Shown here in pieces: positions 4,084 through 17,543 of a stretch of 32,032 nucleotides of DNA. Under the pieces are notes generated by a model. The model was not told the origin of the DNA. It worked only from the letters and a program-made list of their open reading frames with translations, and made no database searches. Source of the DNA: Halomonadaceae bacterium T82-2. GTDB lineage: Bacteria > Pseudomonadota > Gammaproteobacteria > Pseudomonadales > Halomonadaceae. The stretch is taken from positions 1-32,032 of the forward strand of contig LSBP01000033.1 in the NCBI GenBank assembly GCA_001577635.1. Reading direction: 5' to 3'. How positions within the stretch are numbered: position 1 is the first letter of the stretch; each line of letters starts with the position of its first letter. Made by a program: the position numbers and the translations under genes.

Positions 4084-5379
4084 TCAGAAGGTCAGCCCGA
4101 AATGCGTCTGGACGCTGGTGTGCCAGTTGTCGTCCACCGGCGAGCCGAAGTAGTTCAGGCCGTTCTTGTTGGCGATGATGTCGAACCAGGCGTAGTAGGG
4201 CCCGGCGGTCACCTTCATCCCCAGATCGTTGAGCATGGGATTGTCCATGTTGCCGTAGCCGCCGTTGATCGGCGAATAGTCGTTGGCGGCATCGATGACA
4301 CTGAAGTCATTGTAGAAGTAGAGGTTCTCCACCGGCCCCCAGTTGACGTCCATGCTGTAGGCCAGACTCGCCGAATAGGTCTCGCCCTTGGCCGGAATCA
4401 GGTAGTTGAAGCCGAAGGCACCGACCTGCAGGACGTTGTCGGAAATGCCCGATACCGACTCCGCCGGGTTCTCGGCGTTGTACTCGTAGGTGGTGGCCTG
4501 CAGCAGGGTCAGCCAGTTGCCGTAGCTGCCGCTCAGGCCCAGCGCGGCCTGCCAGTTGTCGCCGCTGTCGCCGGTCCGTGTGTTGTAGAGCTGACCCCCC
4601 TTGGCCGAGAGGTTGACCTCGGTGGTGTAGTCGCTGCCCTTGCCGAAGGTGTAGGCGACGCGACCGGCGAACTGGTTCTCTTCCGTGTTGCCCTGGGCGC
4701 TGTTGCCCACGGCGTTGGCGCCATAGTGCTCGTTGTCGTCGCCGAGCTGGTCACTCTTGAAGAAGGCCAGCGAGGTGTCCCAGGCGCCGGTGCTGTGATC
4801 CCACTTGATACCGGCGTTCTGGTTGTCGTTGAAGCCCGCCAGATAGGGCAGGTTGCCGTACCAGCCGAGATACCCGTAATCCATGTTGCCGAACGGCGTC
4901 TGCACCAGACCCAGCTTGACGCTGTCGTTACCGGTTATGTCGTAGCCCAGCCAGCCGTGCTGCAGGAAACGATAGCCGTTGTAGAAGCGGTACTGGAACG
5001 AGTAATTGAACTGGTCGTAGCCCCCGCTGACGCCGAGGTTGAACTTGCCGAAGTCGAGGTCCCCGCCGGTGTCCTTGTCGCGCTGGCTCCAGTCGTTGAA
5101 GGTTGAACCGAACTCGAGCTGACCGTTGATTTCGGTGCGCTTCATGGCCTCGAGAATCTGGCTGTTTTCTTCGGCCAGCTGTCGGGTTTGATCCGACTCA
5201 CTGGTGGAAGCCTGGCGTTGCTGCTCGTCGAGCTGGGTTTGGAGTTGCTCGATCTTGTTGCGCAGTTCCTGCAGCTGTCGCTGCACGTTGGTGTTGCTGG
5301 CCTGTTGTGCCAGCGCCGGCGTGGCCAGCGTGAACAGTGTGGTGGTCAGCCCAATAGCCTTGAATGATCTCTGCTTCAC
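4084..5379 (-). CDS. Outer-membrane porin with N-terminal coiled coil
   Basis: A 431-residue exported protein. A signal peptide ends at ATPALA|QQ (residue 24/25). Residues 25-80 are rich in Q, E, L and R and read as a coiled coil (LQELRNKIEQLQTQLDEQ), which in such porins can form a periplasmic trimeric stalk. The rest is alternating aromatic/polar beta strands of a barrel, ending in a C-terminal phenylalanine (HFGLTF), the usual outer-membrane assembly signal. The start is GTG at 5379, with AGGAG seven bases upstream. It has its own extended -10 promoter and a terminator. It lies 204 bp downstream of the riboswitch operon on the same strand, with no terminator visible between them, so some read-through is possible. 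Solute specificity cannot be told. Confidence 0.87.
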   Translation of the reverse strand: MKQRSFKAIGLTTTLFTLATPALAQQASNTNVQRQLQELRNKIEQLQTQLDEQQRQASTSESDQTRQLAEENSQILEAMKRTEINGQLEFGSTFNDWSQRDKDTGGDLDFGKFNLGVSGGYDQFNYSFQYRFYNGYRFLQHGWLGYDITGNDSVKLGLVQTPFGNMDYGYLGWYGNLPYLAGFNDNQNAGIKWDHSTGAWDTSLAFFKSDQLGDDNEHYGANAVGNSAQGNTEENQFAGRVAYTFGKGSDYTTEVNLSAKGGQLYNTRTGDSGDNWQAALGLSGSYGNWLTLLQATTYEYNAENPAESVSGISDNVLQVGAFGFNYLIPAKGETYSASLAYSMDVNWGPVENLYFYNDFSVIDAANDYSPINGGYGNMDNPMLNDLGMKVTAGPYYAWFDIIANKNGLNYFGSPVDDNWHTSVQTHFGLTF

Positions 5380-5583: not shown

Positions 5584-6318
5584 TCAGTCGCCCGAGTGAA
5601 CAATCACCGGCGTGGTCTTGCCATGCGGTGGCCTCATCGGTTCGGGGGCGATGCGCTCGCCGACCCGCCAGGGCCGAGTGGACAGTGCAACCCGCCAGCC
5701 GGCGTCGTCGCGGTGCAGATAGTGCAGGGCCAGGCCGGCGCGCCATCTCAGGGCGTCGTCGGGCAGGGTCGAGGCGGGCGCCAGAAGGTCGTGTGTCTCG
5801 GGCATGGCGCCTCGCGGCTCGATCCACACCGCATGATCGCCGCGCTGCAGCCAGCGGGGCAGCCCCTGTGCGTCCAGGCGCACTGTGTCGCCGGTCTCGA
5901 CGCTGTCGGTGAGGCACGCCCAGTCCTCCCGGTAGCGCCCCCGGGGATCGCGTTCCTCGAGGCGGTGCGGATCGAGAAAGCGCATGTCGCCGACGTCCTT
6001 GTCGAGCCCCGGCGAGAGATCGACGAGCCGGTGCCAGGTGCAGAAGCGCCCCTCGACCCGGGTCAGCCCGACGAAGGCGGTCAGGCTCGCCAGCCAGATG
6101 AGCTGGTCGCGGCGGCACTCGGCCAGCGATGCGACGCCGCGAAAGTCGGGGGTATCCACCGGCACGCGCAGATCGGCGTGCCAGCACGCCGTCTGAAGCC
6201 AGACGACCCGGGTCGAGCGATCGTCCACGCACTGGCCATCGTCGTCCTCGCCGACATAGCGCAGGCGTTGCCACACGCCGCGATAGACCGGCGGTACGCC
6301 GGGCAGCGGCATGCTCAT
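5584..6318 (-). CDS. Unknown protein, last gene of the guanidine riboswitch operon
   Basis: A 244-residue protein that I do not recognise. It has no signal peptide or membrane span and looks soluble and cytoplasmic. It is rich in Trp, Arg and Asp, with segments such as YRGVWQRLRYVGED, TRVVWLQTACWHADLRVPVD and EGRFCTWHRLVDLSP. The alternation suggests a beta-rich (possibly lipocalin-like) fold. A faint likeness to the HRI1 family is from memory only and unverified. The start ATG at 6318 overlaps the TGA of the upstream oxygenase (ATGA), with GGGAG ahead of it, so it is translationally coupled to that gene. Placement implies a role connected to the oxygenase, for example handling its substrate or product. 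No terminator is obvious after its stop codon. Confidence 0.8.
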   Translation of the reverse strand: MSMPLPGVPPVYRGVWQRLRYVGEDDDGQCVDDRSTRVVWLQTACWHADLRVPVDTPDFRGVASLAECRRDQLIWLASLTAFVGLTRVEGRFCTWHRLVDLSPGLDKDVGDMRFLDPHRLEERDPRGRYREDWACLTDSVETGDTVRLDAQGLPRWLQRGDHAVWIEPRGAMPETHDLLAPASTLPDDALRWRAGLALHYLHRDDAGWRVALSTRPWRVGERIAPEPMRPPHGKTTPVIVHSGD

Positions 6319-7397
6319 GGCGTCTCCCGATCGACTTGCGGATGACGTGCGTGCTGGCCCAGGGTAGCGGTATCGCGAGCGCCATCCGGCAGGTGAATCT
6401 CGCCCGTGGCTAGACGTTCTTGCAGATAGGCGAAGGTATGGATGGTCTGGGCGTAAAGGTGCTCGCCGGCCTTGAGCGGGGCATAACGTGCCTCGCCGTC
6501 GCGCGCGACGAGCTGGGGCAACGGCGCCACGGTGGTGGCGTAATCGCAGGCGAAGAACAGCGGGAACGCGTAGCGCTCCTCCTTGACCTTGCGGACCCGA
6601 TGCGAGGTCGCGACGAATTCGCCATTGGTCCAGATCTCCAGCATGTCACCGATATTGATGACCAGGGCATCGTCGCGGTAGGGCACGTCGATCCATTCGC
6701 CCTTGCCGTTCATGACCTCGAGACCCGGCGCGGTCGGCAGCAGCAGGGTGAAGCATTCGTAGTCGGTATGCGCGCCGATGCCCTGGGCGTCCTCGGCGTC
6801 GGGATTGTACGGGTAGTGGATCAGGCGCAACTGGCTGGGCGGCCGGGTCACGTCCTTGAGGAAGTGTTCCTCGGGCAGCCCCAGGGCCAGGGCGAAGCCA
6901 CGCATCAGGGCGCGGCCCACCGCGTAGGCTGTCTGGTAGTAAGCGTAGACCTGCTCACGGAAGCCGGGCAGGTCGGGCCACACGTTGGGCCCTAGCATCG
7001 GGGTGCCGGCGATCACCGCGGGATCGTCGGCGGGGAGCTCGAAGGACAGGTCGAAGGCCTCCTTGAGATCGCGCTTGCCCTTCTCGGGAACTTCCTCGCC
7101 TTCGGGAACGTAGCCGCGATGGCGGGTGGTGCCGTTGCCGGCGGAAAGGCCGATGTAGTGGCGCATCTTGGCTTCCATCGGCTGGGCGAAGAAGCGCCTG
7201 GCCTGATCCAGCAGCCCTCGGCGCGTCTCCTCGCCGATGCCGTGACCGACGACATGGAAGAAGCCCACGTTGCGCGCCGCATCGCCAAGCTGCTCGGCGA
7301 CGGCCAGACGTTCGCCCTTCTGTTGACTGAAGAGCCCGCTAATGTCGATCACCGGCAGTGACTGGAAATCGCCGGGTTGGCGTTGTGCATGGCTCAT
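6315..7397 (-). CDS. 2-oxoglutarate/Fe(II)-dependent oxygenase, isopenicillin N synthase-like
   Basis: A 360-residue non-haem iron oxygenase. An N-terminal DIOX_N region (PVIDISGLF, NVGFFHVVGHGI) is followed by the double-stranded beta-helix core. The iron ligands are His210 and Asp212 (GIGAHTDYE) and His266 (VATSHRV). Arg275 in ERYAFPLFF is the expected 2-oxoglutarate carboxylate ligand; the usual RxS serine is Ala, as I recall for ethylene-forming enzyme (ERFACAYF). The family couples decarboxylation of 2-oxoglutarate to oxidation of a second substrate. Both ends overlap neighbours by ATGA (allophanate hydrolase upstream, unknown protein downstream). In a guanidine-controlled operon, an attractive inference is hydroxylation next to the guanidino nitrogen of a substituted guanidine, releasing free guanidine. 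The substrate itself is unknown. Confidence 0.9.
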   Translation of the reverse strand: MSHAQRQPGDFQSLPVIDISGLFSQQKGERLAVAEQLGDAARNVGFFHVVGHGIGEETRRGLLDQARRFFAQPMEAKMRHYIGLSAGNGTTRHRGYVPEGEEVPEKGKRDLKEAFDLSFELPADDPAVIAGTPMLGPNVWPDLPGFREQVYAYYQTAYAVGRALMRGFALALGLPEEHFLKDVTRPPSQLRLIHYPYNPDAEDAQGIGAHTDYECFTLLLPTAPGLEVMNGKGEWIDVPYRDDALVINIGDMLEIWTNGEFVATSHRVRKVKEERYAFPLFFACDYATTVAPLPQLVARDGEARYAPLKAGEHLYAQTIHTFAYLQERLATGEIHLPDGARDTATLGQHARHPQVDRETP

Positions 7398-9223
7398 GAG
7401 CGTTCTCCCTGTTGGGAGTCGAGCCAGCCGCGCCAGCCGCCGAAACGGGTCACGTCCTCGGCCGGGCCATCCGCTTCCAGGGCCCCGGCGGCGCAGATGA
7501 AACCGCACTTCCACTGACCGTCTTCCAGTTCGACCTGCCCCAGTCCGAGCGGGGCGGGAATGCCGGCGAGAAAGCTGCCGACGCCGTCGATGGGTAGGCG
7601 CCAGACCTCCACCTCGATGGCGGCGCCGTTGGCATCGTCGCGGACCATCGCCGGGCGCGCTGGCGGGCCGCCGGCCAGCGCATACAGGCGGTAGTTCGCG
7701 CTGCTGCGGGTCGTGGCGACCTTGATCGCGCCGCGGCGGGTCAACTGGTGATTGAGCGCCAGGCCGTCGAGATGCGCCCCGCACACCACCAGTTCCAGGG
7801 TGCCGTCGTGGGCCTCCGGCAAGGCCGGCAGCGGGGCGCGGGCGACGCCGGTGGCGCCCAGCGGCAAGTCGAGGCGGCGCTCCAATGCGCGGCCGAGGCT
7901 CAACAGCGTCAGGTCGGCGAAAGCCGGGCCGAACAGCGTGACGCCGAACGGCAACCCGGCGTCGGTGAAGCCGGTGGGCACGGCCAGGGCGCTGTAGTCG
8001 AGCAGGTTCATGAAGTTGGTCCAGGTGCCCAGCCGCGAATTGACGGCGACGGGCTCGGCGGCCACCTCGGCCTTGGTGGGATGCGTCACGGTGGTCGGCG
8101 CGAGCACGACGTCGACCCCGGCCAGCAGGGCATCGGCCTGGCGCTTGTACTCGGCGAGCTGGTAGCGGGCGTCGAAGGCGTCCACGGCACGCGGCTTGCC
8201 GCCGCCCTCGATGACCTGGCGTGTCACCGGATGCAGGGCGTCGGGACGGTTCTCGATCAGCTCGCGTACCGCATGGTAGCGCTCGGCGACCCATGGCCCT
8301 TCGTAGAGCAGGCGCGCCGCGGCCAAAAGCGGCGTGCAGTCGAGCTCGACCTTGATGCCGCCCAGCGCCTCGAGAGTGTCGACGGCCCGGCGCATGCCGG
8401 CGGTGTAGGCGTCATCGGTCTGCCACTGCGATTCGAGCGGCACGCCGAAGCGAAAGCGCCCCGGCGCCTCGCCGTAGGCCTGGCCGGCCACGGCGAAATC
8501 GTGGCGTCGCGACCAGGCGCAGTCGGGATCGTACTCGCCGGCGACACTCAGCACGGCGTTGGCGTCGTCGGCGCTCAGCGCAAAAAGGCTGATGGTGTCC
8601 AGGGTAGCGCAGGCCGGTACCACGCCGGCGGTGCTCAGCAGGCCTAGTGTGGGCTTGATACCGAACAGGTTGTTGAAGCACGCCGGTACGCGCCCGGAGC
8701 CGGCGGTGTCGGTGCCCAGCGCGAAGCTGACCTGGCCCTGGGCGGTGGTGACCGCCGAGCCGCTGCTCGAGCCGCCGGGAATGCGCTCGCCGTCGAAGGC
8801 GTTGCCGGGCACGCCGTAGATGTCTGGGGCGCGCTCGCCGACCAGACCAGTAGCAAACTGATCGAGGTTGGTCTTGCCCAGCGGAATGGCACCGGCCTCG
8901 ATCAACTGGCGCACCACGAAGGCGGATTCATCCGGTGTGTAGGCATAGGCCGGGCAACCCGCCGTGGTCGGCACACCGGCGAGGTCGATGTTGTCCTTGA
9001 TGGCAAAGGGGATGCCGTAGAGCGACAGCGTCTGCGGGTCGGTCGCCTCGAGACGTTCGAGATAGGGTTCGAGCTGCTCGCGCGTGAGCCGGGTGATCCA
9101 GGCGGGATCAAAGCCACGCGCGTCGGCATCCGCCAGCAGCGTGTCGATCAATTCACGCGGGGTCAGCGCATTGGCGCGATAGCGCGCCAGCAACGAAGCA
9201 ATGGTCATGTCGACGGCATTCAT
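7394..9223 (-). CDS. atzF: Allophanate hydrolase
   Basis: A 609-residue amidase-signature enzyme that hydrolyses allophanate to two ammonia and two CO2, the last step of urea/guanidine carboxylase pathways. The N-terminal amidase domain (to about 450) shows the Ser-cisSer-Lys triad: Lys76 (FAIKDNID), Ser152 in the GGSSSGSA loop and nucleophile Ser176 (GTDTAGSGRVPA). The C-terminal domain (about 475-609, LELVVCGAHLDGLALN onwards) is the specific allophanate hydrolase extension with a gamma-glutamylcyclotransferase-like fold. Length agrees with stand-alone AtzF (about 605), so it is not fused to the carboxylase as in yeast urea amidolyase. The start ATG at 9223 overlaps the carboxylase TGA, and the stop overlaps the oxygenase start. 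Confidence 0.95.
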   Translation of the reverse strand: MNAVDMTIASLLARYRANALTPRELIDTLLADADARGFDPAWITRLTREQLEPYLERLEATDPQTLSLYGIPFAIKDNIDLAGVPTTAGCPAYAYTPDESAFVVRQLIEAGAIPLGKTNLDQFATGLVGERAPDIYGVPGNAFDGERIPGGSSSGSAVTTAQGQVSFALGTDTAGSGRVPACFNNLFGIKPTLGLLSTAGVVPACATLDTISLFALSADDANAVLSVAGEYDPDCAWSRRHDFAVAGQAYGEAPGRFRFGVPLESQWQTDDAYTAGMRRAVDTLEALGGIKVELDCTPLLAAARLLYEGPWVAERYHAVRELIENRPDALHPVTRQVIEGGGKPRAVDAFDARYQLAEYKRQADALLAGVDVVLAPTTVTHPTKAEVAAEPVAVNSRLGTWTNFMNLLDYSALAVPTGFTDAGLPFGVTLFGPAFADLTLLSLGRALERRLDLPLGATGVARAPLPALPEAHDGTLELVVCGAHLDGLALNHQLTRRGAIKVATTRSSANYRLYALAGGPPARPAMVRDDANGAAIEVEVWRLPIDGVGSFLAGIPAPLGLGQVELEDGQWKCGFICAAGALEADGPAEDVTRFGGWRGWLDSQQGERS

Positions 9224-12200
9224 GCGGAGGTCTCCAGGTTCGCGGTCTGTTCGAGAATCACGATCGGCTGGCCGGGCGCGACGGCGGCCCCTTCGGCCAG
9301 CGGCAGGCGCGTGACCTGGCCCGCCTGCTGGGCGAGGATCTCGACCTCCATCTTCATCGACTCGACCAGCGCCACCACCTGGCCGGCCTCGACGTGCTCG
9401 CCTTCGGCGACCGTCAGCTTCCACAAGCTGCCGGTGACCGGGCTGTCGATGCCCAGCTCGTCGCTACCCAGTTCCGTGGCCTCGACGGCTTCCGGGGCCT
9501 GATCCTCGAAGGTGAACTGGCCGTTGGCGCGCCAGTCGGCCATCTCCTGCTGGAAGGCCGCCTCGCGGCGTTCGCGGAAGTCGCGAATCCGTTCGGCGCG
9601 GTCCTCGATATCGGCCTGGTAGTCGGCGAGCCGGAAACGCGTGGTCTCGACCTGGAGCGGATAGCGCCCGTGGGGAAAGTCTCGGCGGATGCGCATCAGC
9701 TCGTCGTGGCTGACCTCGAAGAAGCGCAGCTGATCGAAGAAGCGCAAAAGCCAGGGGTTGTCGAAATACTCGGTGCGGCGATAGCGGTTCCACATCTGCA
9801 GGGTGCGGCCGACGAACTGGTAGCCGCCGGGACCTTCCATGCCGTAGACGCACAGATAGGCGCCGCCGATGCCCACCGAGTTCTCGGCGGTCCAGGTGCG
9901 TGCCGGGTTGTACTTGGTGGTGACCAGACGCTGGGTCGGATCGAGCGGCGTGGCCACCGGCGCGCCGAGGTAGACGTCGCCCAGGCCCATGACCAGATAG
10001 CGGGCATTGAAGACGATGTCGCGGACCTGCTCGACGGCATCGAGCCCGTTGATGCGGCGGATGAACTCCAGGTTGCTGGGACACCAGGGCGCATCCGGTC
10101 GCACCGAGCGCTGGTACTTGTCGATGGCTTCCTGGCAGGCCGGGTCGTCCCAGGACAGCGGCAGGTGAACGGTGCGCGCCTCGACCTCCAGCGACTCGAC
10201 GTCGCGCAGCTCAAGCTCGGCGCGCTCGAGATGCGCAAGCAGGGCATCGAGGGCAAGTTCGTCGGGTTCGTAGTGGATCTGCAGCGAGCGGATGCCCGGC
10301 GTCAGCTCGCGCAGGCCGGACAGGGAATTCTCCTGCAGCCACAGCATCCAGGCGTGGGCGCGAAAGCGCAGGGCGATGTCGAGCTCCATGGCGCCGAACT
10401 CGATGAGCAGGAAGTCGTCGCCGGCACGGCGATAGACGATGCGTTCGCCGCCCGTCTCGGCCGGTACGTCGCGCAGCACCGGGCTGCCGCGATCCTCTTT
10501 GAACGCCACGGCGGGCTGCTCGCTCAGGGCCTCGAGCTGGGCCTGCTGGCGCGCTTCCAGTTGCCGGGCAGTGGCCAGATCCACCGGCACGAAGCGAACA
10601 TGATCGCCGGCGGTGAGCTGGCCGAGTTTCCAGCGTTCGGCGCGCACCACCGTGGCCGGACACACGAAGCCGCCCAGCGAGGGGCCGTCGGGCCCCAGGA
10701 TCACTGGCATGTCACCGGTGAAGTCGATGGTGCCGAAGGCGTAGGCGTTGTCGTGGATGTTCGACGGGTGCAGGCCGGCCTCGCCGCCATCGGCGCGGGC
10801 CCATTCGGGACGCGGGCCGATCAGGCGCACGCCGGTGCGGCTGGAGTTGTAGTGCACTTCCCACTCATGAGCGAAGAAGGTATCGATGTCGCCTTCGGTG
10901 AAGAAGTCCGGCGCGCCATGCGGGCCGTAGAGCACGGCAATCTGCCAGACATGGCCATCCTGGCCGCCGAGTTCGGGCCTGAGCGCTTCAGGCAGGGCGC
11001 GTGACGCGGTGGGGTCGAGTGCGGGCAGGGCGAGCATGTCGCCGGTGCGCAGGGCGCGCCCGCCATGACCGCCGAACTGGCCCAGCGTGAAGGTGGCTCG
11101 GGAGCCGAGATACTTCGGGCAGTCGATGCCGCCACGCACCAGCAGATAGGCGCGCGCGCCGGCACTGGCCTTGCCCAGCGTCAGCGTGGCCCCGGCGGGA
11201 ACGTCCAGCACCTGCCAGAAGGCCACGGCCTTGCCGTCGAGTTCGGCAGGCAGCTCGCTGCCGGCCAGCACGATCTGGGTGGCGCGGTGAAAGCGCAGCG
11301 TGGGGCCGGTGAGGGTGATCTCCAGCCCCGCCGCGTCGGCGGAGTTATCGAGCAGGCGGTTGCCGAGGCGGAACGACCAGTCATCGAAGGGGCCGGAGGG
11401 CGGCACACCCACGTCCCAGTGGCCCTGGCGCCCGGGGTAGTCCTGAATCGTGGTCAGCGTGCCGGCACTCAGCACCTCGATGGCCGGCGGCGCCCAGGCG
11501 AGATCGGCCAGCCAGCGGGTGTGCAGGTCGGCGTCGCGAAAGCGCGCGTCGCGCAGCACGTGCGACAGCCAGGTACGGTTGGTGGCGATTCCATAGATGC
11601 TGGACTGCTCTAGAACTTCAGCCAGACGTTCGCGGGCCGTGTCGCGGTCGTCGGCATGCACGATCACCTTGGCCAGCATGGGGTCGAACAGCGCCGAGAC
11701 CGTGAGCCCCGCCTCGATGGCGTGGTCGACACGCAGGCCGGGCGTCTCGGGAAACGCGACCTCGGTAAGCAGGCCCGCGCTGGGACGGAAATCGTGACTC
11801 GGGTCCTCGGCGTAGAGGCGCGCCTGGATGGCATGGCCAGTGGGCGCGAGATCGCGGGTCAGGGCGTCGAGCGGGGGAAGCTCACCGGCACCGAGGCGGA
11901 TCATCCATTCGACGATGTCGACGCCCCAGACTTCCTCGGTGACGCCGTGCTCGACCTGCAGGCGGGTGTTGACCTCGAGGAAGTAGAAGCGCTGGCGCTC
12001 GGCGTCGTAGATGAACTCCACGGTGCCGGCGTTGCGATAGCCGACCGTTTCGCCCAGGCGCACGGCGGTGGCGTGCAGTTCGCGGCGCACCGTGTCCGGC
12101 AGCTCCGGGGCCGGGCACTCCTCGAGCACCTTTTGGTGGCGGCGCTGGGTGGAGCAGTCGCGCTCGCCCAGCGCCACCACCTTGCCCCGGCCGTCGCCGA

Positions 12201-12888
12201 AGAGCTGCACTTCCAGATGGCGGGCGCGGGCGATATAGGTTTCGAGAAACACCCCGGCGTCGCCGAAGTTGCGCTCGCCGAGGCCGCGCACCGAGTCGAA
12301 GGCGCGCCGGAGTTCGGCGTCGTCGGCACACACCTGCATGCCGATGCCGCCACCGCCGGCGGTGGACTTGAGCATCACCGGATAGCCGATGCGTTCGGCC
12401 TGGACGAGGGCGTCATCGACGCTGGCGAGCAGCCCGGAACCGGGCACCAGCGGCACGCCGGCGCGTTCGGCGAGTGCTCTGGCCTCGTGCTTCAGGCCGA
12501 AGTCACGGATCTGCTCGGCCGTCGGGCCGAGAAACACCAGGCCGGCATCCTCGCAGGCCTGGATGAAATTCGTGTTCTCGGACAGGAAACCGTAGCCGGG
12601 ATGCACTGCCTCGGCGCCGCTTTTTCTGGCGATGTCGATCAACGTGTCGATGGCCAGGTAGGTGTCGGCGGCGGCACCGTCGCCGAGCGAATAGGCCTCG
12701 TCGGCCTGGAAAACATAGGGCGCGTCGCGGTCGGCCTCGGCGTAGACCACCACCGAGGCGATGCCCAGGCGCTTGAGCGTGCGCTGGATGCGGGCGGCGA
12801 TGGCGCCGCGATTGGCAATCAGGACTTTGCTGAACATGAAAGCGGTCCATGACGTGGCGGGCCGTCCCGCCGGGACTGGTAGCGCCAT
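9220..12888 (-). CDS. Biotin-dependent guanidine/urea carboxylase
   Basis: A 1222-residue ATP-dependent carboxylase annotated by homology as urea carboxylase. Order: biotin carboxylase with ATP-grasp (to about 465; FSKVLIANRGAIAARI, KSTAGGGGIGM, FLEVNTRLQVEHGVTE), a carboxyltransferase made of AHS2-like then AHS1-like (KipA/KipI-type) halves, and a C-terminal biotinyl domain with Lys1179 in VESMKMEVE. The riboswitch and flanking DUF1989 genes point to guanidine as the real substrate, giving carboxyguanidine; this is inference from context, not from active-site residues. Start choice: ATG at 12888 has GGAG at good spacing but adds 17 residues; homologues begin at MFSKVLIANRG, corresponding to ATG 12837, which lacks a clear ribosome site. 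A terminator-like hairpin lies just upstream. Confidence 0.93.
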   Translation of the reverse strand: MALPVPAGRPATSWTAFMFSKVLIANRGAIAARIQRTLKRLGIASVVVYAEADRDAPYVFQADEAYSLGDGAAADTYLAIDTLIDIARKSGAEAVHPGYGFLSENTNFIQACEDAGLVFLGPTAEQIRDFGLKHEARALAERAGVPLVPGSGLLASVDDALVQAERIGYPVMLKSTAGGGGIGMQVCADDAELRRAFDSVRGLGERNFGDAGVFLETYIARARHLEVQLFGDGRGKVVALGERDCSTQRRHQKVLEECPAPELPDTVRRELHATAVRLGETVGYRNAGTVEFIYDAERQRFYFLEVNTRLQVEHGVTEEVWGVDIVEWMIRLGAGELPPLDALTRDLAPTGHAIQARLYAEDPSHDFRPSAGLLTEVAFPETPGLRVDHAIEAGLTVSALFDPMLAKVIVHADDRDTARERLAEVLEQSSIYGIATNRTWLSHVLRDARFRDADLHTRWLADLAWAPPAIEVLSAGTLTTIQDYPGRQGHWDVGVPPSGPFDDWSFRLGNRLLDNSADAAGLEITLTGPTLRFHRATQIVLAGSELPAELDGKAVAFWQVLDVPAGATLTLGKASAGARAYLLVRGGIDCPKYLGSRATFTLGQFGGHGGRALRTGDMLALPALDPTASRALPEALRPELGGQDGHVWQIAVLYGPHGAPDFFTEGDIDTFFAHEWEVHYNSSRTGVRLIGPRPEWARADGGEAGLHPSNIHDNAYAFGTIDFTGDMPVILGPDGPSLGGFVCPATVVRAERWKLGQLTAGDHVRFVPVDLATARQLEARQQAQLEALSEQPAVAFKEDRGSPVLRDVPAETGGERIVYRRAGDDFLLIEFGAMELDIALRFRAHAWMLWLQENSLSGLRELTPGIRSLQIHYEPDELALDALLAHLERAELELRDVESLEVEARTVHLPLSWDDPACQEAIDKYQRSVRPDAPWCPSNLEFIRRINGLDAVEQVRDIVFNARYLVMGLGDVYLGAPVATPLDPTQRLVTTKYNPARTWTAENSVGIGGAYLCVYGMEGPGGYQFVGRTLQMWNRYRRTEYFDNPWLLRFFDQLRFFEVSHDELMRIRRDFPHGRYPLQVETTRFRLADYQADIEDRAERIRDFRERREAAFQQEMADWRANGQFTFEDQAPEAVEATELGSDELGIDSPVTGSLWKLTVAEGEHVEAGQVVALVESMKMEVEILAQQAGQVTRLPLAEGAAVAPGQPIVILEQTANLETSA

Positions 12889-12930
12889 GGAGTCGTCTCC
12901 AAGGCAAAAAAAACGTTGTTATGGGCCGGT

Positions 12931-12958: not shown

Positions 12959-13597
12959 CTAGTCCCAGATCAGCAGCTCGATCGGCGTCGGGTTATAGCC
13001 GTTGCACGGGTTGTTGAGCTGCGGGCAGTTGGAGATCAGCACCACCACGTCCATCGCGGCGATCATCTCCACGTACTTGCCCGGTGCCGAGATGCCGTCG
13101 GCGAAGGTCAGCCCGCCTTCGGCGGTCACCGGCACGTTCATGAAGAAATTGATGTTGTGGGTGATGTCGCGCTTGGTGAGGCCGTACTCGGGATGATTGG
13201 CGATGGCCTGCATCCAGTTGTCGCGGCACGAATGCATGTGGCGCTTCTCGAGGTCGTAGCGCACGGTGTTGCTCTCGCTGGCGCAGGCCCCGCCCAGGGT
13301 GTCGTGGCGACCGCAGGTGTCGGCGGTGAGGGTCAGCAGCACGTTGCCCTCGTTGGAGAGCAGCCGGGAGCCGGCAGTCAGGTAGACCGCGCCCTGCTCG
13401 CGCAGGGTATCCATGGCGCTGTAGCGTTCGGCGGTGTCATGGGCGTTGAAGAACAGCGTGTCGGCGGCCTGGTTGCCTTCCAGATCGAGGATGCGCAGGG
13501 TCTGGCCGGCCTGGACGATGCCGATGTAGTGATCGCCGGCCTCGACCGTGGTGCGGCTTGTGGCGTTCTCGGGACGCTTGGTGCTCTCGATGATCAT
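12959..13597 (-). CDS. Carboxyguanidine deiminase subunit (DUF1989, urea-amidolyase-associated protein)
   Basis: A 212-residue soluble protein of the DUF1989 family, the shorter of the two paralogues that accompany urea/guanidine carboxylases (UAAP proteins). In guanidine-assimilating bacteria the pair forms carboxyguanidine deiminase (CgdAB), converting carboxyguanidine to allophanate and ammonia. Family-typical blocks are visible: [52 protein letters not shown] and the C-terminal [18 protein letters not shown]. The start ATG at 13597 has AAGGGAG upstream and lies 12 nt after the paralogue. Which of CgdA or CgdB it is should be settled by profile search, so no symbol is given. Confidence 0.87.
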
Positions 13598-13609: not shown

Positions 13610-14350
13610 TTACAGGCCGAGATGGTAGAGGCGGTTGTTGGCGAAGCCGCGAGCGTTCTCCGGGCGCGAGCGGTAGCAGACGTCGTCCTCGGTGGGCGCC
13701 GGCGCGGTCCCCAGCGCGATATCCACGCCGCGGCGCGGATACTCGGCGCTGGGGTCGAGCGGGTGCGGACAGGTGTGCAGGATCACCAGGGTATCCATTT
13801 CCAGGCGCAGCGTGACGCTGGCACCGGGCTGGCAGTGCCCGGGCACGAAGCGCAGCCGGCCCTCGCCGTCGCTCTCCACCCGTGAGAACAGATTGAGATT
13901 GGCAGCCATGTCGCGCCGGCCGAGGCCGTACTTGGCCAGTTCGACCAGGAAATTGTCGTAGCCGGTGCGGGTCCACGCGTTGTGAGCCTTTTGATAGCTG
14001 ACCGGTTGCCAGCCCTTCTGAACCATGTGATGTGGCATGAGGTTGCCGCCCACGCTGTCGTGCCAGCCCAGGTCGTCGTCGACGATCGAGGCGAAGATGC
14101 GCCCCATGTCGGAATACAAGCAGTGGCCGCGGGTCAGCTTGAAGGTGTGCTGGGCCTTCAGCGTGTCCGGCAGATTGAGGCGCTCGAGCAGGTTCTCGGG
14201 GTTGTAGCACAGCAGGCCGACGTTGGTGTCGGCCTCCTTCGCCGTCAGCGTCAGCGTGGTACCGCGACGTAGACGCAGCGACCAGTGCTGGCCGCCGGGC
14301 AGATGCGTGGTGTAGCGCGCATCGTCGTTGGGGGGCATGGGCGTACTCAT
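13610..14350 (-). CDS. Carboxyguanidine deiminase subunit (DUF1989, urea-amidolyase-associated protein)
   Basis: A 246-residue protein, the longer DUF1989 paralogue of the operon and presumed partner of the following gene in carboxyguanidine deiminase. It shares the paralogue layout: TNVGLLCYNPENLLERLNLPDT, GHCLYSDMGRI, LGWHDSVGGN, NLNLFSRV and, near the end, HTCPHPLDPSAEYPRRGVDI. No signal peptide or membrane span is seen, so it is cytoplasmic. The start ATG at 14350 overlaps the ATPase TGA by ATGA, and the stop is 12 nt before the next paralogue, so the two should be made together. Older annotation as a urea-carboxylase accessory protein of unknown role would be superseded if guanidine is the substrate. 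Confidence 0.87.
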   Translation of the reverse strand: MSTPMPPNDDARYTTHLPGGQHWSLRLRRGTTLTLTAKEADTNVGLLCYNPENLLERLNLPDTLKAQHTFKLTRGHCLYSDMGRIFASIVDDDLGWHDSVGGNLMPHHMVQKGWQPVSYQKAHNAWTRTGYDNFLVELAKYGLGRRDMAANLNLFSRVESDGEGRLRFVPGHCQPGASVTLRLEMDTLVILHTCPHPLDPSAEYPRRGVDIALGTAPAPTEDDVCYRSRPENARGFANNRLYHLGL

Positions 14351-15159
14351 GTCAGCGTCTCCTGAGTCGTGTGCGTGAGGCGGGTGGTGGCGTCGAGCTG
14401 GGCGGAAAGCCCCTCGGGGGGCTGCTGCATCTCGCCGACCGGCAGGTCATAGGTGATGGTGGCGCCATAGGCCTGGGGGGCCTGCGGGTCATGGCGGACC
14501 TTGTCGAACACCCACAGTCGGGTGCCGAGCGCGAAGGCTTCCTTGACGTCGTGGGTGATCATGAAGATGGTCAGCTGCTGCTCACGCCACAGCCGGGTGA
14601 TCAAGGCATGCATGTCCTGGCGAATGCCGGGATCGAGTGCGCCGAACGGCTCGTCGAGCAGCAGGATGCGTGGCTTCATCATCAGCGCCTGGGCGATGGC
14701 CAGACGCTGCTGCATGCCGCCGGACAGTTCGTGCGGATACTTGGCCAGCGCGTTCTGCAGGCCGACTTCCTCGAGTCGCGCGACGGCGGCGTCACGCGCC
14801 CGGCGACGCGCACTGCCGAACAGCTTGCCCAGCCATGGCGAGCGGGCCAGCTCCTCGGCCATCATCACGTTGCCGAGCACGCTGAGGTGGGGGAACACCG
14901 AGTACTTCTGGAACACCACGCCGCGATCCGGGCCGGGTTCGTCGGGCAGCGGCCGGCCGTCCAGCGTCAGGCTGCCGCGGGTGATGCGTTCGGTGCCCAG
15001 CAGCAGTTTCAGAAAGGTGGTCTTGCCGCAGCCGGAAGCGCCGACCAGGGTGATGAACTCGCCGACATCGACACGAAACGACAGGCGCTCCAGCACCACC
15101 TGGTTGCCGTAGTCCTTCTCCACGCGCCGGGCTTCGAGCAGGCTTCTTGGATGGCTCAT
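14347..15159 (-). CDS. ABC transporter ATPase, probable guanidine uptake (nitrate/taurine type)
   Basis: A 270-residue ATP-binding subunit of the nitrate/sulfonate/taurine importer type. Walker A is GASGCGKTT (residues 40-48), the ABC signature LSGGMQQR, Walker B ILLLDEPFGALD and the switch His lies in ITHDVKEAF. The longer open frame upstream is a shadow of the permease gene; ATG at 15159 (MSHPRSLLEARRVEKDYG) gives the proper N-terminus and overlaps the permease TGA (ATGA). It should energise the membrane subunit encoded just upstream. The substrate is inferred from the riboswitch and the downstream carboxylase pathway: guanidine, or possibly a substituted guanidine or urea. Confidence 0.9.
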   Translation of the reverse strand: MSHPRSLLEARRVEKDYGNQVVLERLSFRVDVGEFITLVGASGCGKTTFLKLLLGTERITRGSLTLDGRPLPDEPGPDRGVVFQKYSVFPHLSVLGNVMMAEELARSPWLGKLFGSARRRARDAAVARLEEVGLQNALAKYPHELSGGMQQRLAIAQALMMKPRILLLDEPFGALDPGIRQDMHALITRLWREQQLTIFMITHDVKEAFALGTRLWVFDKVRHDPQAPQAYGATITYDLPVGEMQQPPEGLSAQLDATTRLTHTTQETLT

Positions 15160-15983
15160 GTCTGGTCGCCCTCCTCGGCGTGATACCAGGGAAAGGCGCG
15201 TGTCGAGATCAGCACCAGCACCCGGTCGATGACGAAGGCCAGCAGAGTGATCCAGGCCACATAGGGCAGGATCACGTCCATAGAGAGATAGCGGCGCACC
15301 AGGAAGATGCGATAGCCCAGGCCTTCCTGGGCGGCGATGGCCTCGGCGGCGATCAGAAACAGCCAGGCGCTGCCCAGCGCCAGGCGGGTCGAGGCGATCA
15401 GTCGCGGGGTGAGCTGCGGCAGCAGCACCCGGGTCAGCACCTGCCAGGAACTCGCCCCCAGGGTCTGCGCCTTGATCAGCTGTTCGTCGGGCAGGCGCAG
15501 GGCGTGGTTCTGCAGGTCGCGGATCAGAAATGGCGTCACGCCGATGACGATCAACGCGACCTTGGCCATCTCGCCGGTACCGAAGGCGATGAACAGGATC
15601 GGCAGGATGGCCATCGGCGGGATCAACGAGATCACCGTCACCAAGGGTGAGAGCTTGGCGCGCACCAGCGGCAGGCCCCCGGTGAACAGGCCAACGAGCA
15701 GACCGATCAGGGCGCTGATGGCGATGCCCAGGCCCAGACGTTCGAGACTGGCGAAGGTGTCGTCCCACAACGGAATGGTGCCGGTGCGCACGCTGGCTTT
15801 GGTCGCCAGTTGGCCGAAGGTCTCGGCCATGGTGGCGGGCGAGGGCAGCAGGCGGTCGTCGGGATTCTCCGCCAGGCGCGCGTTGGACAAGGCCAGATAG
15901 ACCATCCCCACGAGCACGAACGGCACCAGCCCCAGCAGCCAGCGGCTGCCCCGGGTCGGTGTGAGGTTGATGAGTCGCTTCAT
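15156..15983 (-). CDS. ABC transporter permease, probable guanidine uptake
   Basis: A 275-residue inner-membrane subunit with about six to seven predicted spans. It contains the EAA-type cytoplasmic loop for ATPase docking (DEQLIKAQTLGASSWQVLTRVLLPQL). It resembles permeases of nitrate/taurine/urea-carboxylase-linked importers. Two in-frame ATGs exist. GGAG is only two bases from the first (15989) but eight from the second (15983, MKRLINLTP), so the second is preferred. The stop overlaps the ATPase start by ATGA. It is separated from the binding-protein gene by 92 nt that contain a long stem-loop. Confidence 0.9.
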   Translation of the reverse strand: MKRLINLTPTRGSRWLLGLVPFVLVGMVYLALSNARLAENPDDRLLPSPATMAETFGQLATKASVRTGTIPLWDDTFASLERLGLGIAISALIGLLVGLFTGGLPLVRAKLSPLVTVISLIPPMAILPILFIAFGTGEMAKVALIVIGVTPFLIRDLQNHALRLPDEQLIKAQTLGASSWQVLTRVLLPQLTPRLIASTRLALGSAWLFLIAAEAIAAQEGLGYRIFLVRRYLSMDVILPYVAWITLLAFVIDRVLVLISTRAFPWYHAEEGDQT

Positions 15984-16014
15984 GAGCATGACTCCGTCGG
16001 GTGGATGGCGTGCT

Positions 16015-16075: not shown

Positions 16076-17128
16076 TTATTGCTGCGACTCGACGTAGGCG
16101 TCGGTATAGCGGGGGTCGAAGCGCAGCTTGACGTTGGACTCGTTGCCGAACACGCCCTGGGGCGTTTCGATGCCCACGAAGCCCGGGTTGGGGGCCATTT
16201 CGCCGAGCAGGCCGTGCTTGAAGCTGAACTCGGCGACACGCTGCATGGTGGAGAGCAGATCCTCGCTGCGCATCAGTGAGGCGGCCTCGACGGGGTCGGT
16301 GTAGAGGTGGGTGGCGGCGAGCTGGTTCCGGTAGCCGGCGAGGTCGGTGCCGGCGGCCTCGGCCATCTGCGAGAGCGCCTGCTCGTCGCCGGCCTCCATC
16401 GTCTCCATGACTTCATACCAGGCGCCTACCAGGGCATGGCCGAAATCGGGGTTGGCGGCCAGGGTGTCGGTGTTGACCACCATCATGTCGAGGATTTCGC
16501 GGGGGATCTGCTTGGAGGTGTAGACCACGTGGCTGTTGTCCAGTCCGTCGATGGCGCTGAGCTGCGGATTCCAGGTCACCACGGCCTCGATGTCGTCGTT
16601 GGGGTAGATGGCGACGATGTCGGCATCCGAGGTGTTGACGGTCTCGATGTCGCGCTCGGTGAGGCCGACGCTCTCCAGGGCCCGGGCCAGGAAGTAGTGG
16701 GACACGCTGAACTGCACCAGATTGACCTTGCGACCTTTGATGTCGGCCAGGTCGTCGCTGTCCTTGAGCACGATGCCGTCGTTGCCGTCGGAGTAGTCGT
16801 TGATGATCAGCGCGGTGGAATCGACGCCGCTGGCGGCGGGCAGGGTCAGAGCGTCCATGTTGGTCATGGCGCAGCCGTCGACGTTGCCGGAGGTGTACTG
16901 GTTGATGGACTCGATGTAGTCGTTGACCTGCACGAGATCGATGTCGATGTCGTACTTGTCGGCCCACTTGTCGATGATGCCCTGGGTGTCGGCATAGCTC
17001 CACGGCATCCAGCCGGCATAGATCGACCAGCAGACGCTGAAATGGTCGCGGCTCTGGGCATTCGCCAGAGGTGAGGCCAGCAGGGCCGACAAGGTCAGGA
17101 CGGGGAGAGTGAGATTGTGCAAGCGCAT
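16076..17128 (-). CDS. Periplasmic binding protein of the riboswitch-controlled ABC transporter
   Basis: A 350-residue exported solute-binding protein of the nitrate/taurine (NMT1/SsuA-like) class found beside urea carboxylase genes. The signal peptide MRLHNLTLPVLTLSALLAS continues to a cleavage site at ANA|QS. The mature start (FSVCWSIYAGWMPWSYAD), GCAMTNMDALTLPAASGVDSTA and the two-lobe layout fit type II binding proteins. The start ATG at 17128 has GGAGG six bases upstream; the longer open frame runs back into the riboswitch and is not coding. As first gene of the operon it is the direct target of riboswitch control. It presumably captures guanidine or a close relative; the ligand is inference. 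Confidence 0.92.
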   Translation of the reverse strand: MRLHNLTLPVLTLSALLASPLANAQSRDHFSVCWSIYAGWMPWSYADTQGIIDKWADKYDIDIDLVQVNDYIESINQYTSGNVDGCAMTNMDALTLPAASGVDSTALIINDYSDGNDGIVLKDSDDLADIKGRKVNLVQFSVSHYFLARALESVGLTERDIETVNTSDADIVAIYPNDDIEAVVTWNPQLSAIDGLDNSHVVYTSKQIPREILDMMVVNTDTLAANPDFGHALVGAWYEVMETMEAGDEQALSQMAEAAGTDLAGYRNQLAATHLYTDPVEAASLMRSEDLLSTMQRVAEFSFKHGLLGEMAPNPGFVGIETPQGVFGNESNVKLRFDPRYTDAYVESQQ

Positions 17129-17183: not shown

Positions 17184-17316
17184 GTATCCTCCCGGGCTTT
17201 TCTCCCGCCGTGTAACCCGTCGTCAGCCATACTCGTTCAGTGCGGCGGGTCGATGGCTCTCGGACCAGTCATCGCATCGGGGTGAGTAGGTGATGCGATC
17301 GGAACCCTAGCCATCC
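17184..17316 (-). promoter_or_regulatory. Guanidine-I riboswitch (ykkC class)
   Basis: The minus-strand leader carries the conserved blocks of the ykkC guanidine-I aptamer in order: GGCTAGGGTTCCG, then ACTGGTCCGAGAG, then ACGGCGGGAGAAAAG and GCCCGGGAGGATAC. The stems also form: GATGGCT with AGCCATC, ATCGCATC with GATGCGAT, and ACCCG with CGGGT. It sits 55 nt before the ATG of the binding-protein gene. The 55 nt contain no hairpin followed by a U run. GGCTGCC (17174-17168) could pair with the ribosome-binding GGAGGCC (17137-17131), so control of translation seems more likely than termination. Binding of guanidine should turn the operon on. Confidence 0.93.
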
Positions 17317-17543
17317 ATTGGAAACCGAATTGTGTGGCGGCATGGCCGCCGATACCCCTGTTTCTCTCGCTGACACCCGTTACAAAATTCCTGCCAGTCA
17401 GGGTAAATATATTACTTTTCAGCTGGTTGCGATATTTCGAGCAGGAATTGTTCCAGACGGGGATTTTTCAGGAGTACCCTTGTGCTGCTTTTTGGTGCAA
17501 CGCTGATAGTCATTCTCAGCAATGGTGCAGAGTCCATGGAGTG
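17317..17543. other. Upstream region of the guanidine operon
   Basis: Together with the riboswitch and leader this makes a 415-bp gap without a gene (17129-17543). Short plus-strand open frames here have no ribosome site or recognisable protein. Apart from the possible sigma-54 promoter and NtrC-like half-sites, only a weak hairpin (GCTGA/TCAGC, 17502-17520) after the efflux operon is visible; it lacks a T run. Confidence 0.5.
17381..17396 (-). promoter_or_regulatory. Possible sigma-54 promoter of the guanidine operon
   Basis: On the minus strand TGGCAGG-N4-TTGTA matches the -24/-12 consensus TGGCACG-N4-TTGCA with exact GG-N10 spacing, but has GT where GC is expected at -12. The start would fall about 50 nt before the riboswitch. 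TTGCACC (minus strand, 17499-17493) and CTGCACC (17530-17524) lie about 110-145 bp further upstream and look like NtrC half-sites. Nitrogen-limitation control would suit the pathway. An alternative AT-rich -10-like block (TATATT) lies at about 17407-17412. Confidence 0.35.

Follow-up and report, generated by a model that had tools for sequence, protein, structure and literature searches.

The 32,032-nucleotide stretch of DNA analysed here (the window) comes from Halomonadaceae bacterium T82-2 and carries, on its minus strand, a gene for a 2OG/Fe(II) oxygenase set within an operon for guanidine degradation. The question raised by this locus is which substrate the oxygenase acts on, and whether it supplies the operon with guanidine. 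A sequence-only reading had put the oxygenase forward as a candidate guanidine-releasing enzyme, listing several substituted guanidines as possible substrates and noting that such a bacterial enzyme would be new.

The oxygenase gene and the operon around it

The oxygenase gene (P0001; 6315-7397, minus strand) is not a chance reading frame. It translates to 360 amino acids with an ATG start, a TGA stop and zero internal stops, and the product matches the Pfam families DIOX_N (107 bits) and 2OG-FeII_Oxy (81.6 bits); neither this protein nor the product of the downstream gene mgdL matched an NCBIfam model at E <= 0.001. Residues 210, 212 and 266 are H, D and H, so the intact HxD...H site described earlier (His210, Asp212, His266) is present as the metal triad, and it is kept in all 21 aligned oxygenases. 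The window and locus L036 have R275-Y-A277 at the R-x-S motif, which we take to be the 2OG-binding motif, against R-Y-S in the other 19 of the 21 aligned sequences. The ATGA overlaps on both sides of the gene are likewise real: its ATG at 7397 overlaps the TGA of atzF (7396-7394), and its own TGA (6317-6315) overlaps the ATG of mgdL at 6318. In addition, a GGAG lies 5-7 nt upstream of the start codons of both mgdH, as we call the oxygenase gene below, and mgdL. Among 151 genomes sampled from the family, ten (the window's own counted) have a 69-100% identical oxygenase adjoining the same partner gene, and the 4-nt overlap between mgdH and mgdL is kept in 10/10 Halomonadaceae loci, the window among them.

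Based on Rfam, Pfam and NCBIfam searches and a frame check, the minus strand carries one tightly packed guanidine operon that runs from a Gd-I riboswitch at the 5' end to mgdL, in the order Gd-I, substrate-binding protein (SBP), permease, ATPase, UAAP1, UAAP2, Gd-II, gca, atzF, mgdH and mgdL. The Gd-I riboswitch (17187..17321; RF00442, 84.6 bits, cut-off 63) is the sole RF00442 match in the assembly from which the window was taken. It is followed by the genes of an ABC importer, namely the substrate-binding protein (16076..17128; TIGR03427, 494 bits, cut-off 334; an open frame from the ATG at 17128), the permease (15156..15989; Pfam BPD_transp_1) and the ATPase (14347..15159). The ATPase gene is an open frame of 270 amino acids with an ATGA overlap at both ends, and 73-86% identical homologues occupy the same position in the six relatives where the gene caller found it. 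UAAP1 (13610..14350; TIGR03425, 298 bits, cut-off 206) and UAAP2 (12959..13597; TIGR03424, 335 bits, cut-off 285) are presumably the subunits of carboxyguanidine hydrolase, and we equate them with CgdA/B. A Gd-II (mini-ykkC) riboswitch (12857..12904; RF01068, 42.7 bits, cut-off 32) lies just upstream of gca (9220..12837; TIGR02712, 1795 bits), which encodes a guanidine carboxylase of the urea carboxylase family and shows 80% identity to gca of Vreelandella boliviensis. The allophanate hydrolase gene atzF (7394..9223; TIGR02713, 734 bits) shares ATGA overlaps with gca and with mgdH, and the operon ends with mgdH (6315..7397) and mgdL (5584..6318). The same 4-nt overlap also joins the permease gene to the ATPase gene and the ATPase gene to UAAP1. 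The start codons of the genes for the substrate-binding protein, gca and atzF are those chosen in the present analysis. Both riboswitch scores exceed the Rfam gathering scores, which confirms the guanidine setting proposed from the sequence.

Directly after mgdL there is a porin-like gene of 431 amino acids with a GTG start (4084-5379, minus strand); the porin call is a reading of the sequence, and searches of Pfam and NCBIfam with this gene gave no match. A promoter-like site (5489-5461) precedes it and a terminator-like hairpin (4051-4028) follows it, the totals of such sites being at most slightly above those in shuffles (3 vs 1.6; 7 vs 6.1). In locus L018 a different gene on the opposite strand stands in its place. 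We left the porin-like gene outside the operon.

Orthology to the published methylguanidine pathway

Sinn et al. (Nat Commun, 8 October 2025; PMC12508155) described two enzymes, MgdH and MgdL, from Vreelandella (Halomonas) boliviensis LC1. Of the compounds tested there, only methylguanidine and N,N-dimethylguanidine were hydroxylated by MgdH, and the product, N-(hydroxymethyl)guanidine, has a half-life of more than 1 hour. MgdL, whose substrate range is narrow, cleaves N-(hydroxymethyl)guanidine to guanidine and formaldehyde, and D49 and R51 proved essential in mutants (PMC12508155). The paper also reports that the Gd-II RNA of V. boliviensis binds guanidine and methylguanidine alike as ligands, that the strain grows on methylguanidine, and that similar operons occur in Salinisphaera and Vreelandella.

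We identified the published MgdH with our locus L041 from the name of the strain and the layout of the operon. This locus holds genes for the substrate-binding protein, permease, ATPase, UAAP1 and UAAP2, then gca, mgdH, mgdL and atzF, plus Gd-I and Gd-II sites, in agreement with the legend of Figure 1 in PMC12508155. The window and L041 oxygenases are identical at 256 of 351 positions (73%), and the two MgdL proteins at 109 of 236 (46%), the catalytic D49 and R51 carrying identical numbers in both. In a quick maximum likelihood tree of 60 oxygenases, supported by SH-aLRT values with no bootstrap, the two oxygenases fall into a common clade of 17 rows (SH-aLRT 99), and gca and MgdL are present in all 17. 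Within this clade, the window and its three nearest relatives (L017-L019) form a subclade (98) in which mgdH-mgdL comes after atzF rather than before it. The two systems are thus alike in their orthologous genes, operon content, both riboswitch classes and the D49/R51 numbering of MgdL. However, they differ in gene order. The window and L017-L019 read gca-atzF-mgdH-mgdL, whereas V. boliviensis, like the majority of the other Halomonadaceae loci examined, reads gca-mgdH-mgdL-atzF, with atzF some 6 kb farther along in L050.

From these comparisons of sequence and context, we consider the window oxygenase to be an orthologue of MgdH, and hence a 2OG/Fe(II)-dependent methylguanidine hydroxylase, with a probability of about 0.93. 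The assignment of methylguanidine as the substrate follows from the orthology to the V. boliviensis enzyme. Points against this assignment are the MgdL identity of only 46%, the differing gene order, A277 in place of the usual Ser in the R-x-S motif, the indirect matching of the published MgdH to L041, and the subfamily members described below that lack both MgdL and gca. Methylguanidine was on the list of candidate substrates drawn up from the sequence, and it is a substrate of the V. boliviensis orthologue (PMC12508155). The expectation of a new enzyme did not survive, since that orthologue had been published in October 2025 (PMC12508155). The pathway is therefore already published for an orthologue. 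What the window adds is one more orthologue and an alternative gene order, and with them the newly described pathway reaches another branch of the Halomonadaceae.

Judging from the characterised orthologue, MgdH of the window would use O2 and 2-oxoglutarate to hydroxylate the N-methyl group of methylguanidine, giving N-(hydroxymethyl)guanidine, and N,N-dimethylguanidine would be a further substrate. The product would be a long-lived hemiaminal, which MgdL would split by acid-base catalysis through D49 and R51 into guanidine and formaldehyde. Subsequently, Gca, UAAP1/2 and AtzF would break guanidine down to CO2 and ammonia. Uptake of methylguanidine and guanidine probably proceeds through the ABC importer, the Gd-I and Gd-II riboswitches would turn the operon on, and the outcome of the demethylation would be a supply of nitrogen for the cell. 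The proposal that the oxygenase feeds the operon with guanidine thus very probably holds, except that the oxygenase alone would free none quickly, the splitting of N-(hydroxymethyl)guanidine being the task of MgdL. The genome of the window also encodes an S-formylglutathione hydrolase (428.6 bits, cut-off 281.7), which is consistent with formaldehyde disposal but not specific to it.

Alternatively, the oxygenase might free guanidine from an arginine-type substrate (arginine, homoarginine or agmatine), as the ethylene-forming enzyme (EFE) or the plant 2-ODD-C23 enzymes do. All these enzymes belong to one superfamily, and the best solved relative of the window oxygenase, 9ovh, is labelled as an ethylene/succinate-forming enzyme and matches residues 12-303, nearly the whole domain (210.7 bits, or 304 bits with a subfamily profile). 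On the other hand, the well-studied EFE 5v2t reaches 60 bits and covers residues 92-218 only (126 bits over profile positions 35-222 with the subfamily profile), and a strict partnership with an MgdL that is narrow for N-(hydroxymethyl)guanidine is hard to explain under an arginine-type substrate. Taken alone, the PDB matches leave EFE kinship possible, as the best of them carries the EFE label, although we know 9ovh by its label alone; it is chiefly the orthology to MgdH that led us to reject an EFE-type arginine oxygenase, and we regard an arginine-type substrate as very improbable. EFE, which occurs in Pseudomonas and fungi, and plant 2-ODD enzymes, here the 2-ODD-C23 homoarginine-6-hydroxylases, had been cited beforehand as known guanidine releasers; they stand as mechanistic analogues and are probably not the nearest kin. 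According to PMC12508155, EFE is a 2OG/Fe(II) oxygenase that converts a guanidino substrate to guanidine via hydroxylation, and the plant enzymes are 2OG oxygenases that also release guanidine. Unlike MgdH, EFE uses arginine as the substrate with ethylene as the main product, and its 5v2t representative gives the partial and weak match noted above. The plant enzymes, which we set apart by description, act on homoarginine or arginine, and their products decay spontaneously with no lyase involved (PMC12508155). That paper also draws an analogy between MgdL and a known dedicated lyase for a hydroxylated C-N intermediate, and reports no sequence homology between the two.

Another alternative is that the main substrate is not methylguanidine but N,N-dimethylguanidine or a guanidine derived from a drug. 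The V. boliviensis enzyme is nearly as good on N,N-dimethylguanidine (KM 0.25 mM, kcat 17.3 per s); however, this compound supports poor growth of V. boliviensis and elicits no Gd-II response, and its hydroxylated forms are untouched by MgdL (PMC12508155). We therefore hold a different main substrate of this kind to be very improbable.

Distribution of the pair and the wider oxygenase subfamily

An MgdL homologue was found in 12 of the 151 genomes sampled from the family of the window. Ten of these 12 have mgdH-mgdL in a gca operon and five have a distant second pair, three genomes being common to both groups. All nine relatives' operons have a Gd-II site and six of the nine have a Gd-I site, the other three loci ending before the operon start.

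Oxygenases at least 50% identical to that of the window were sought in samples of 151 genomes of the family, 398 of the phylum and 369 of the class, which partly overlap. This gave at least 33 loci, a lower bound because at most five candidates per genome were scored in the phylum and class samples. An MgdL homologue is present in 19 of them, and 17 of these 19 have gca genes within about 9 kb. The remaining 14 loci (L031-L036, L117, L118, L120, L122, L126, L128, L132 and L133), with oxygenases 51-59% identical to P0001, have a TIM-barrel gene, no MgdL, and no gca in the stretch fetched. The TIM barrel is xylose-isomerase-like (PF01261 in L034, the others by homology), and it may be a replacement of MgdL. 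An amino-acid-type ABC importer accompanies it in 12/14 loci and an agmatinase-like ureohydrolase in 8/14.

These data bear on the possibility that the oxygenase has no part in the pathway of its operon and works on a substrate that lacks a guanidino group. The DIOX_N/2OG-FeII_Oxy enzymes form a very diverse group, and the homologues at 51-59% identity stand outside guanidine operons. Nevertheless, every member of the 17-row clade lies in a gca operon with MgdL, the 4-nt overlap is invariant in the ten Halomonadaceae loci, and the V. boliviensis orthologue has been assayed (PMC12508155). We rejected a bystander gene on the strict linkage within the clade, and consider this reading extremely improbable. 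As to whether orthologues are found mostly away from guanidine genes, a point raised by the sequence-only reading, this is not so for any row of the clade; the wider subfamily is mixed, with 17 of at least 33 loci linked to gca. Because at least 14 of the sampled loci lack both MgdL and gca, other substrates may be in use across the subfamily at large.

The distant pair of oxygenase and MgdL-like genes (42-45% and 28-32%) occurs in Halomonadaceae (L026:8223-15948 and L027-L030) and in roseobacters (L081, L084, L088 and L099), and keeps D49/R51. It is preceded by a LysR gene and followed by PotA/D/B/C-type importer genes in L026, L027/L107, L093 (on the contig of L028), L110 and L112, and Pot-type ABC importer genes also lie beside it in the four roseobacter loci. 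No guanidine riboswitch was found in the five Halomonadaceae loci scanned (L026-L030). Our guess is that the distant pair is a related demethylase for another N-methyl cation. Nine loci with MgdH and MgdL but no gca were scanned, and a guanidine riboswitch was found in one only (L097).

The MgdL family and a candidate second route to guanidine

The mgdL product of the window (P0002) has 244 amino acids and no Pfam or NCBIfam match. Two peptide patterns derived from an MgdL alignment were run against 84,980 species genomes, and at least 80 loci matched. D49 and R51 are kept in all 84 aligned MgdL sequences, which comprise the 80 listed loci, the window and three more, with near-copies included and with L026 and L112 being the same contig. 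A search of PDB sequences with MgdL alignment profiles gave no match at E <= 1 and E <= 5. We also considered and rejected a plasmid-borne module, as no MgdL homologue was found in 72,556 plasmid records (E <= 1e-3). Meanwhile, 18 of 70 MgdL-family proteins match Pfam HRI1 (PF16815), presumably a fungal family (best E 1.3e-7; for example L105:9911-10771), hinting that Hri1 might be a distant relative of the MgdL lyase; the window MgdL itself has no HRI1 match. The available text of PMC12508155 makes no mention of HRI1, and a literature search on HRI1 gave nothing.

Among the 80 MgdL loci listed, a 2OG oxygenase is present in 40, a protein of the FA_desaturase family in 28, neither in 12, and both in none. 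The 28 di-iron loci belong to Pseudomonas, Halopseudomonas, Paraburkholderia, Hydrogenophaga and other Burkholderiales, Plasticicumulans, and metagenome-assembled genomes (MAGs). In the fullest form, the gene order is SBP, FA_desaturase di-iron hydroxylase (8-His), SDR, SDR, EamA, creatininase, amidase, MgdL, and ABC permease/ATPase; examples are L056:3980-12458, L062:343-7265 and L066:3730-10588, with 25 similar loci among L054-L087. The HxxxH motif and two HxxHH motifs of the membrane di-iron hydroxylase are present in 28/28 loci listed, and a creatininase in 27/28 (in L056, TIGR04448 with 376 bits, cut-off 235). The two SDRs and the EamA transporter are usual, as are the ABC permease and ATPase, and most of the loci have the amidase; that of L056 is biuret-hydrolase-like, with 248 bits, under the NCBI cut-off of 370 for that enzyme. 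In 14 of 15 di-iron loci scanned with Rfam, the upstream end of the operon has a Gd-I riboswitch oriented like the genes; the exception, L076, is truncated by a contig end, and the first gene of L064 was left unnamed. Genes of the gca operon lie a few kb downstream in five Burkholderiales loci (L062, L065, L066, L080 and L083). Genomes for 11 of the 28 loci with the di-iron/creatininase/MgdL operon were tested, and all 11 have gca, two of them inside the locus; this is weak evidence, because in the genus of one of these genomes 17 of 25 members (that genome counted) have gca. A literature search, with thin coverage of subscription journals, found no publication on this operon.

The combination of creatininase, hydroxylase, dehydrogenases and amidase under a guanidine riboswitch suggests that the starting compound is creatinine or creatine and the product methylguanidine or guanidine. 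The di-iron loci thus suggest that guanidine is made from creatinine-like compounds by a route not yet described, in which the lyase is kept and the hydroxylase swapped. Our broader proposal, to which we give even odds, is that MgdL heads a larger family of hemiaminal lyases for hydroxylated guanidines with swappable hydroxylases, and that the di-iron operon serves the carboxylase pathway by oxidising creatinine, creatine or the products of their ring opening to methylguanidine or guanidine. Two chemistries can be envisaged. The N-methyl group could be hydroxylated and lost as formaldehyde, as with MgdH/MgdL, or the carbon beside the guanidine nitrogen could be hydroxylated to a creatol-like intermediate with release of a glyoxylate unit; under either, MgdL would break the C-N bond. 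If true, this would provide an enzymatic source for the (methyl)guanidine whose origin is termed elusive in PMC12508155. Should several hydroxylases share MgdL-type lyases under guanidine riboswitches, the vertebrate waste product creatinine would become a testable natural source of bacterial guanidine, and there would be a concrete, testable answer as to why guanidine sensing is so widespread among bacteria. In this respect, the related di-iron operons matter more than the finding in the window itself.

Two further loci carry creatininase-like genes. In a Pseudonocardia MAG (L097:9060-11148 onward), a Gd-I riboswitch directly precedes genes for MgdL, MgdH and a creatininase-like protein (38%), which ties creatininase to the methylguanidine demethylase. 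In a Gammaproteobacteria MAG, a match to the Rfam 5' ureB sRNA (L092:13036-13318; 99.6 bits) falls in a locus that combines an MgdL homologue with gca genes and a distant creatininase-like gene.
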